Source: Syntrophomonas sp. (GTDB lineage: Bacteria > Bacillota > Syntrophomonadia > Syntrophomonadales > Syntrophomonadaceae). From it: a stretch of 64,000 nt of DNA. The notes under the pieces are model-generated. The model was not told the DNA's origin, searched no databases, and saw only the letters and a program-made list of their open reading frames with translations. Each line of letters starts with the position of its first letter. Position 1 is the stretch's first letter. The stretch is from contig JAENZE010000011.1 of assembly GCA_016841425.1 (NCBI GenBank), forward strand, positions 73,225 through 137,224, given 5' to 3'. Position numbers and translations under genes: made by a program. Below, in pieces: positions 32,454 to 55,121 of the stretch.

Positions 32454-33002
32454 TTACTGCTGTTGTTGGATAATGGCTTTTTCAATTCTTTCCAGTCGCT
32501 CTTCTATCACGTGGTAGGGACTGGAGAAAATACCGCTCTCATTGTCGAAGAGGCGATTATCAAATATCCTTTCGAAAGTGAACGAGTTGTTAAACTGGTC
32601 GTCATAGCTGACGGTGATTATCCGGCTGGATCTTAGCATCCTTGAGTATTCATCTTTAGATGCAATCTGACATCTTTCACGAAACTGCTGTTCTGGAGTC
32701 AGAGATTCTACGCTGATTTGCTTGAATTGAAGATTTCCCAACTCAATAGGTGGATCGATGCTCACAGTTATATTTTTAGCTATACCTGCGCCGGTATTTG
32801 TTGCCAGCAGATAAAGCCACTCTCCTTTAACCTCCAGATCAGCAATTATATTAGGCTGTACCCTGCATTGCACATTGGTTTTTACCAGCTTGAAAGCGAT
32901 AGTAACATAACCTAAAGCAGCCACAGCCGCAATGACTGAGGCCAGCAGTGCATAAAGAGCATTATATTTTAGAAGATGATTGATAAAATTGCTAAACTCC
33001 AT
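32454..33002 (-). CDS. Hypothetical membrane-anchored protein
   Basis: A 182-residue protein with one N-terminal membrane helix (about 15-38, YALLASVIAAVAALGYVTI), followed by a beta-rich soluble part (about 55-150) and a short coiled helix at the end (EERLERIEKAIIQQQQ). The layout resembles small bacterial proteins with an extracytoplasmic or cytoplasmic beta-sandwich after one helix; I cannot name the family. GGAGTGG lies just before ATG 33002; the frame extends 8 codons further without a better site. Confidence 0.65.
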   Translation of the reverse strand: MEFSNFINHLLKYNALYALLASVIAAVAALGYVTIAFKLVKTNVQCRVQPNIIADLEVKGEWLYLLATNTGAGIAKNITVSIDPPIELGNLQFKQISVESLTPEQQFRERCQIASKDEYSRMLRSSRIITVSYDDQFNNSFTFERIFDNRLFDNESGIFSSPYHVIEERLERIEKAIIQQQQ

Positions 33003-33103
33003 GTTACCACTCCAAATTATTATCACTTTGGCAAGATATTACCGCCAGCTAGTCCGGGGAGGAGTTTATAATATAATTGGCTTTTCCTAATCCTTGTATA
33101 CTA

Positions 33104-33129
33104 AACCCAAGGGGACGGTTCTTCCGGTT
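33104..33129. repeat. REP-type repeat, left flank of transposase relic
   Basis: AACCCAAGGGGACGGTTCTT and on to CCGGTT. It is the inverted counterpart of 33534-33558 with few mismatches and shares the GGGGACGGTTC core of the other REP copies in this window. Confidence 0.8.
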
Positions 33130-33174
33130 GCGTGATCTTCTGATTCTGTTATTGTATATCAGAGGTGATTTGAT

Positions 33175-33517
33175 ATGTGAAGAACTGTAGGAAAGCGGAG
33201 CGTATTGGTATAATTGGAAATATCAATGATGCGGGCGTTTATTTCAGGACAGATACGAAAGTGAAGCTGTTGAAGATGATAAATATTTTTTAACTGTCTT
33301 AAATAATATACACCGAAACCCTTTAACGGCTGGAATCATAAAGGATATTGCTGAGTACAAATGGAGTGAAAATACAGGAAATAGTAAAATGATTGATACA
33401 GATTTTGCACTGAAGCTGTTTAATGACAACAAGGAAAAAGCAAAAGATGAGGGGCTGTCAACAAGACAGTTGGCGCGATCAACAGGAATTAGCAGAAGTA
33501 TTATTTTGAAGGCGTAA
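33175..33517 (+). pseudogene. Decayed REP-associated (Y1_Tnp/RAYT-type) transposase
   Basis: From 33233 to 33517 the frame reads RLFQDRYESEAVEDDKYFL, then NNIHRNPLTAGIIKDIAEYKW and a C-terminal helix-turn-helix STRQLARSTGISRSIILKA, which is the classic C-terminal part of Y1 transposases (GHLFQDRY, YIHRNPVKAG). The catalytic tyrosine/HUH middle part is missing. Upstream, AGAGGTGAT and ATG 33175, now followed by TGA, read R-T-V and R-K-A like a RAYT N-terminus, then the frame shifts. So it has a stop, a large internal deletion and a frameshift. It is flanked by inverted REP copies. Confidence 0.8.
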
Positions 33518-33533
33518 TCCATAACCAGTTTCA

Positions 33534-33558
33534 AACCGCAAGAACCGTCCCCTTGGTT
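33534..33558. repeat. REP-type repeat, right flank of transposase relic
   Basis: AACCGCAAGAACCGTCCCCT and on to TGGTT. It is an inverted copy of 33104-33129. Its end supplies the stop codon of the minus-strand receiver-domain gene. Confidence 0.8.
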
Positions 33559-33946
33559 ACCCATCTCGCAAACATACTAATCCCGCTTCGATTGAAAGCT
33601 CGACCGCATTGGCAATCTGTACTGCGGGAAGAACAGTAGGAAGACAGGCGGTTACTTTTAGATCAAACATATTACATATATCAATATGCGCTGGATTATC
33701 GCTTAATATGAACAGGTCGGATGATGGACAGCAGAAGCGCAGCTCCTTTAACCTGGATGAATATTTTTTATGCTCATCTAACTTCCATATTACAATATCA
33801 GGCTGTAAAATACTGGCTTCGAATATAAGGTTATCTGATGGCACATCACCTATCACCTCATATGAGACCATGTTTTCGAAAGCCGCTATAAGATTATTAG
33901 CATATAAAAGGCTATCGCTGCATAAAAGAATTTTCCATGGTTTCAA
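33557..33946 (-). CDS. Truncated response-regulator receiver domain
   Basis: A 129-residue protein resembling the receiver domain of a NarL/LuxR-type response regulator (WKILLCSDSLLYANNLIAAF at the start, LQPDIVIWKLDE at the usual phosphorylation strand, ACLPTVLPAVQIANAVELSI at the end). The usual phospho-aspartate region reads DIVIWKLDE, so the site is altered. The frame stops inside the REP repeat and there is no DNA-binding domain, so the gene was probably cut short by that insertion. TTG 33946 has GGGGTGAT 5 bases upstream; GTG 33955 overlaps the ribosome site. Confidence 0.6.
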   Translation of the reverse strand: MKPWKILLCSDSLLYANNLIAAFENMVSYEVIGDVPSDNLIFEASILQPDIVIWKLDEHKKYSSRLKELRFCCPSSDLFILSDNPAHIDICNMFDLKVTACLPTVLPAVQIANAVELSIEAGLVCLRDG

Positions 33947-33955
33947 AAATATCAC

Positions 33956-34351
33956 CCCGCCAGTTCTGAATCAAACTAAAAACAATTTATTCATCTCTCT
34001 ATAAAATGCGTAAATCAGAGCATAAAAAATGGGGTCAGACTCGCATTATTTTATTTAACGCGGATATTTCTTGGTCAGATATTTAAGGGGCTCAGGGCCT
34101 GAAGATATCATCAGGGCATAAAAGCATACCATATGTACAGTTAAATAGTTATAATAACAATTAGTGAATGATTAGCAAATTATGCATTTATTGGCTCTAT
34201 ATTAAGCGGATAATTAGAGTTTAAGATATAGAAACAGACTTCAATTGACGATAACTAACAAGGGATGTCTATCTCTTACAACTAAACAGGTTATGCCTGA
34301 AGAGCAGAAACGAAGCTCTAAAGATTATATAACAAAGAAGGGACATGATAT
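33956..34351. other. Intergenic stretch with a GGGGTCAGACTCG half-repeat
   Basis: About 395 AT-rich bases between the receiver gene and the divergent GGDEF gene. TGGGGTCAGACTCG at 34030-34043 matches the core of another palindrome family that is commonly associated with Y1 transposases, here as a single half-site. A stem AGAGC/GCTCT lies near 34302-34320. No c-di-GMP aptamer signature seen. Confidence 0.4.
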
Positions 34352-37577: not shown

Positions 37578-37647
37578 AGACAGGGGGACGGTTCTCTGTC
37601 TTGAGGTTTATTGCGATTTAGTAGACAGGAGAACCGTCCCCCTGTCT
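37578..37647. repeat. REP-type inverted repeat, GGGGACGGTTC family
   Basis: AGACAGGGGGACGGTTCTC (37578-37596) and its exact inverse (37629-37647) are separated by 32 bases. It is intergenic between the lipoprotein and YdbC genes. The core is the same as at 33.1, 33.5 and 46.4 kb. Confidence 0.85.
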
Positions 37648-46407: not shown

Positions 46408-46504
46408 ATGCGACAGGGGACGGTTCTCCATTTGTCGCATTAAAATGCGACAAATGGAGAACCGTCCCCTGTCGCATGCAAATGGAGAACCGTCCCCTGT
46501 CGCA
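46408..46504. repeat. REP cluster: perfect 33-bp hairpin plus a third copy
   Basis: 46408-46440 and 46445-46477 are exact inverse copies of 33 bases with loop TAAA. Each contains GGGGACGGTTCTCCATTTG. A third partial copy lies at 46479-46504. It could also act as terminator for the DUF6179 operon. Confidence 0.92.
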
Positions 46505-55052: not shown

Positions 55053-55095
55053 AAGTCCAGGTGACAAAAGGACGGTCCTTTTGTCACCTGGACTT
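55053..55095. repeat. Perfect 21-bp-arm palindrome
   Basis: AAGTCCAGGTGACAAAAGGA and on to C is repeated exactly in inverse at 55075-55095 with one base between. The centre (GGACGGTCC) contains the GGACGGT core of the REP family, here with a different outer sequence. Confidence 0.85.
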
Positions 55096-55121
55096 GATAA
55101 GACAACTTGATAAGCGTAAAC

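Follow-up and report, generated by a model that had tools for sequence, protein, structure and literature searches.

We analysed a 64-kb window, C20:73225-137224 of a 3.58-Mb Syntrophomonas genome in 27 contigs, in which positions 33104-33558 hold a dead Y1/HUH tyrosine transposase gene enclosed by inverted 23-nt ends (33107-33129 and 33534-33556, 96% complementary). The features of this locus, read largely against the intact transposase gene L005 of the same genome, are as follows.

33104-33129, + strand: left terminal inverted repeat, AACCCAA-GGGGACGGTTC-TTCCGGTT, from the sequence; the same end flanks intact L005.
33175-33180, + strand: remnant start codon with a TGA directly after it (ATG-TGA; GTG CCA in the parent), by comparison with L005.
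33202-33203, + strand: junction of a ~223-bp deletion that took away the HUH motif (parental GNHVHLL) and shifted the frame, from blastn blocks against L005.
33227-33229, + strand: second TGA in the transposase frame (CGA, Arg, in the parent), from the translation against L005.
33230-33442, + strand: catalytic-domain remnant, the C-terminal part of the Y1 fold (RLFQDRY...NIHRNP...), from a match to NF047646 (E=3e-6) and 77% amino-acid identity to L005.
33305-33307, + strand: AAT (Asn) codon in place of the catalytic-motif Tyr of YIHRNP in L005, from the translation against L005.
33443-33444, + strand: junction of a ~183-bp in-frame deletion between the catalytic domain and the C-terminal helix-turn-helix (HTH), by comparison with L005.
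33446-33517, + strand: C-terminal HTH remnant (...GLSTRQLARSTGISRSIILKA) and stop, from Pfam HTH matches that are weak and fall under the cut-off, in the relic as in intact L005; the DNA is 87% identical to L005.
33534-33558, - strand: right terminal inverted repeat, AACCAA-GGGGACGGTTC-TTGCGGTT, from the sequence.
33557-33955, - strand: 132-aa gene next to the element, the right end of which supplies the gene's stop codon (33557-33559), by comparison with sister-species orthologues.

The initial annotation had described a decayed Y1-type transposase between inverted repeats, a description that is borne out because an intact relative with the same ends is present in the same genome. Between the ends the plus-strand frame reads RLFQDRYESEAVEDDKYFLTVLNNIHRNP...GLSTRQLARSTGISRSIILKA in translation, and its portion at 33230-33514 finds its best profile match in NCBIfam NF047646 (REP_Tyr_transpos, the REP-associated tyrosine transposase), where it covers positions 103-146 of 146, the last third of the profile, although the match falls short of the model's own cut-off. 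Pfam Y1_Tnp returned no match to the relic fragment in the profile search, and intact L005 matches the same family (PF01797) at E=5e-16; since Pfam misses the fragment, the profile search that had been proposed as a refutation of the transposase assignment would be ambiguous on Pfam alone. Alignment with L005 by blastn gave three DNA blocks of 89, 87 and 81% identity that cover both ends, and the protein identity extends over 74 residues. Relative to L005 the relic lacks the ~223 bp with the HUH motif, a further 9 bp and the ~183 bp before the HTH, so the earlier statement that the middle of the gene is deleted holds for losses at 33202 and at 33443, and the N-terminus that had been called broken by TGA is indeed interrupted, directly after the start and again at 33227. 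An active transposase has an intact HUH motif, a catalytic Tyr and an open frame; here the HUH motif is deleted, the Tyr is changed to Asn and two stops stand in the frame, such that the gene, judged by its sequence, is disabled in several ways at once. Its deletion junctions occur only once, and taken alone the relic is an unremarkable fossil of a kind already described.

Orthologues of the gene at 33557-33955 are 129 aa long and free of the element in two sister species (G001 and G003), and a copy of the element probably inserted at the 3′ end of this gene and decayed afterwards. In the search for an empty target site, G001 and G003 aligned on the right side only; as the left side cannot be aligned between species, neither the precise point of insertion nor a target duplication, if there is one, can be read. 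To the left of the relic, positions 32454-33026 carry a 190-aa frame on the minus strand that has no Pfam match, and no similar DNA was found at the corresponding site in the sister species. On the other side, at 34027-34041, lies TGGGGTCAGACTC, which agrees with the GGGGWSAS motif of other ends described below.

A genome search for an intact, flanked Y1 transposase, which the initial annotation had suggested, returns L005 at C15:110168-111024, one of nine Y1 transposase genes in the genome. L005 encodes 252 aa, carries the motifs GNHVHLL and YIHRNP, which conform to the patterns NH[VY]H and Y-x-x-NP, and lies between the same ends as the relic, with the consensus AACCAA-GGGGACGGTTC-TTGYGGTT for both. 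Its C-terminal matches to HTH_23 and HTH_26 at residues 223-249 fall below the Pfam cut-offs and make a weak domain call. The named relatives with the closest transposases are Syntrophomonas, and a search by sequence found no solved structure for the transposase. The common core also flanks three other transposase genes of this genome with different arms, so that L002, L004, L005 and L008 have ATATCAA, GTGGACA, AACCAA and TGCGACA, respectively. The ends of L007 are GGGGACGTTC and those of L003 differ from them at one or more bases, the two being listed as GGGGACGTTC or GGGACGTTC, while the end of L006 is GGGGACAGGTTC with its core given as GGGGACAG. L009 is flanked by a canonical GTAG double-foot REP, a real GTAG REPtron that is unlike the L005-type ends. 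Other Y1 branches may use GGGGACAG, GGGGTCAG or GTAG in place of the GGGGACGGTTC plan.

The exact core occurs seven times in the window and, with up to one mismatch, eight times against 0.5 expected, a number reached in 0 of 100 shuffles. It had been claimed that the relic's core recurs at 37.6, 46.4 and 55.05 kb and links the relic to the dispersed palindromes; this is right for the first two sites and wrong for the third, and the link exists at the level of the core and not of the arms. At 46.4 kb (46416-46497) there are three ends with TGCGACA arms, which belong to the family of L008 and not to that of the relic, and the intact L008 gene lies at C20:38.7 kb, before the window and ~34 kb from its start. 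At 37.6 kb (37584-37641) there is an inverted pair of ends with ACAG arms, and among the genome's nine transposases none with such arms was found. The copies at these two sites thus have the core alone in common with the relic's ends, and the 55.05-kb repeat, AGTCCAGGTGACAAAAGGACGGTCCTTTTGTCACCTGGACT, has GGACGGTCC rather than GGGGACGGTTC. This last repeat (55059-55100) is a palindrome with a perfect 18-bp stem and the centre ACGGT, outside the GGGGACGGTTC family.

To describe the ends more broadly we gathered those adjoining transposase genes by the core alone, which yielded 62 ends from 36 loci, with both Bacillota and Bacteroidota represented, and tested a register of arm, core, two bases and arm against a control in which arms were shuffled among loci. 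Stem pairing reached 4.71 of 7 pairs compared with 2.55 in the shuffled control (z=12.4), and other registers were at or below chance with the exception of a six-base spacer in the L008 family. A held-out set from the same taxonomic family, from which ends already seen had been removed, gave 5.47 pairs versus 2.53 (17 ends at 9 loci, z=6.9). Core positions were used to select the ends, and their conservation is therefore partly built in; the base that follows the core lies outside the selection and is T in 56 of the 62 ends. Arm sequence tracks transposase relatedness (Mantel rho 0.31, with 1 of 999 permutations as large). Among 80 related transposases the core, with up to two mismatches, was present upstream of only 35 and on both sides of 24. 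The plan common to the 36 loci and the 9 further ones is a near-invariant GGGGACGGTTC, two spacer bases and pairing arms that co-vary. For several ends, hairpin folding clearly surpasses that of shuffled sequences, and the AACC type of the relic is not among them: the relic's own ends, folded alone, do no better than shuffles (z 0.16 and 0.65), and in the family register their pairing is limited to the outer 4-5 bp. Our literature search found no description of an end design with an invariant 11-base loop and a stem that varies between elements, and a search for GGGGACGGTTC returned unrelated papers only.

The sister species G003 has an intact element at a site that is not syntenic with that of L005. 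The two elements share 95.4% identity across 875 bp, from one end to the other, and beyond the ends nothing is alike; between the species, homologous DNA close to the intact copies and to the site of the relic shows about 73-85% identity. The two coding sequences differ at 13 synonymous and 14 non-synonymous positions, and the resulting pN/pS of ~0.27 indicates that the transposase protein was under selection. Short derivatives that carry both ends and part of the gene were found at C13:18.5 kb, C15:205.1 kb, C15:208.2 kb, C5:283.7 kb and other sites. Those at C13:18.5 kb and C15:205.1 kb lie in unrelated places, are 88% identical over ~315 bp with homology that halts at the ends, and share one deletion junction (parent positions 221|772). 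One junction at two loci means that copying of the derivative followed the deletion, and this must reflect either activity in trans or an unusual duplication; with its ends kept, its interior deleted and its multiplication afterwards, this derivative is MITE-like. Taken as a comparison of sequences, these observations indicate that the family moves or has moved, and horizontal transfer between species, instead of transposition within a genome, could account for the 95% copy. The flanks of the intact copies were located in the search for empty sites, and other insertions or rearrangements lay in between.

Truncated tandem copies of an end lie outside the ends of L005, L010, L011, L013, L015, L024 and L069, with the core broken at various points, and look like replication slippage. 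A fixed nick directly after GGTTC, suggested by the truncated copies at L011, L015, L024 and L069, proved unsupported, because the copies at L005, L010, L011 and L013 break inside GGGG or after GGGGAC, breaks that slipped replication fits as well. Separately, an IS110-family element (PF01548, PF02371) lies beside the GGGG of the core at G000:C22, ~72.6-74.15 kb (L141:1135-2650). The same IS-side end, CAACTACAATTTACA|GGGG, is present at three ends (the others at C5:283950 and C14:72), so the core looks like a target of this element; insertion of an IS110-family element into REPs is already known for ISPpu9 (PMC8450116).

Among described systems the closest are the TIRYTs (Di Nocera 2013, PMC3733652), RAYT-like transposases that lie between terminal inverted repeats, several of them with GGGGWSAS. 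That report describes their repeats as small dispersed families in single, dimeric or grouped copies and gives diverse terminal repeats for RAYT-like transposases outside the GTAG group. Most TIRYTs fall in TnpA_Y1 subclass 2.1, which equals group 1 of Bertels and comprises proteins of ~240 aa with an NHVH HUH motif, Y-x-x-NP and a C-terminal HTH-like extension (Quentin 2018, PMC6006769). L005 shares these protein features, with 252 aa against ~240 aa and allowing for the weak HTH call, and the family shares with the TIRYTs and TIRtrons the RAYT-related Y1 transposase, the terminal inverted repeats and the dispersed small repeat families. It differs from them in its core, GGGGACGGTTC, where GGGGACGG is one base off GGGGWSAS (it misses the A) and L006 has GGGGACAG, and in a plan of fixed core and paired variable arms, together with non-syntenic copies of whole elements, that the consulted text of PMC3733652 does not describe. 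The authors of the subclass 2.1 survey found no REP-like sequences near its genes (PMC6006769), whereas the genes here have ends that pair in one register. IS200/IS605 elements (IS608, ISDra2) likewise combine a Y1 HUH transposase with subterminal hairpins and whole-element movement, but in the present family a single sequence, in inverted copies, forms both ends, tnpB is absent, and the protein is marked by Y-x-x-NP and a C-terminal HTH. REPINs and MITEs resemble the short inverted end pairs and the internal-deletion derivatives that would need transposase in trans, although the derivatives here are few and retain recognisable pieces of the parent gene.

We conclude that the relic is very probably a dead internal-deletion copy of a TIRYT-type element with a subclass 2.1-like Y1/HUH gene and the ends AACCAA-GGGGACGGTTC-TTGYGGTT, the class being assigned by protein features and layout. 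The initial annotation had spoken instead of a RAYT between REPs, and of this the Y1 transposase with its own inverted ends stands and the REP label is too loose; the comparison with intact proteins that it had called for aligns the relic with L005, which fits the TIRYT type and not a canonical RAYT. A canonical RAYT/REP fossil, in the strict sense of a REP-associated transposase that is domesticated and immobile and whose REPs bear the GTAG tag, would agree with NF047646 as the best profile match and with ends dispersed as inverted pairs in the manner of REPINs. We nevertheless consider it improbable, because a hairpin-foot GT[AG]G belongs to the canonical subclasses (2.2, 2.4, 2.5, 2.7 and 2.8) and neither the relic nor L005 has a GTAG or GTGG adjoining its arms, while L009, the true GTAG REPtron of the same genome, looks different; moreover, the conserved segment lies inside the stem and not at its foot, the parent protein is longer, at 252 aa, with a C-terminal HTH, and 95% copies are non-syntenic.

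That the related copies arose through segmental duplication or an assembly artefact, and not by transposition, might be argued from the fragmented assemblies and from copies near contig ends (C14, C5), yet two independent comparisons both show homology halting at the inverted ends, and the G003 flank matches the backbone of the sister species, which makes contamination unlikely; we regard this explanation as very improbable. Least probable of all is that the relic is not debris but a domesticated small protein, a truncated regulator made from the HTH remnant. The remnant can be read to its stop, and the second of the two large deletions preserves the frame, but two stops and a frameshift lie upstream, the catalytic residues are lost and the sister species are without the element.

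Returning to the TIRYT-type element, Y1/HUH transposases of the wider family cut and join single-stranded DNA at ends marked by hairpins. By analogy, the element would move as single-stranded DNA with its transposase recognising both ends. In most families the end would form a hairpin whose stem of ~6-7 bp serves as an element-specific address, and the near-invariant GGGGACGGTTC may be a common segment for recognition or cleavage; copies with both ends preserved could still be served in trans by the transposase of an intact copy elsewhere. We therefore put forward tentatively, at somewhat below even chances, a modular design in which the near-invariant GGGGACGGTTC(T) loop serves all the elements as a module for recognition or cleavage, and the stem of each is an address that co-evolves with its transposase, such that several transposases in one genome are kept apart despite their common loop and the relic and the short derivatives are non-autonomous riders. 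The relic alone matters little; the modular design of the ends and the evidence for mobility are the parts that merit specialist attention. A single end plan in Bacillota and Bacteroidota, together with copies at new sites, would give this group of transposases a recognisable substrate and an activity that can be tested in vitro.
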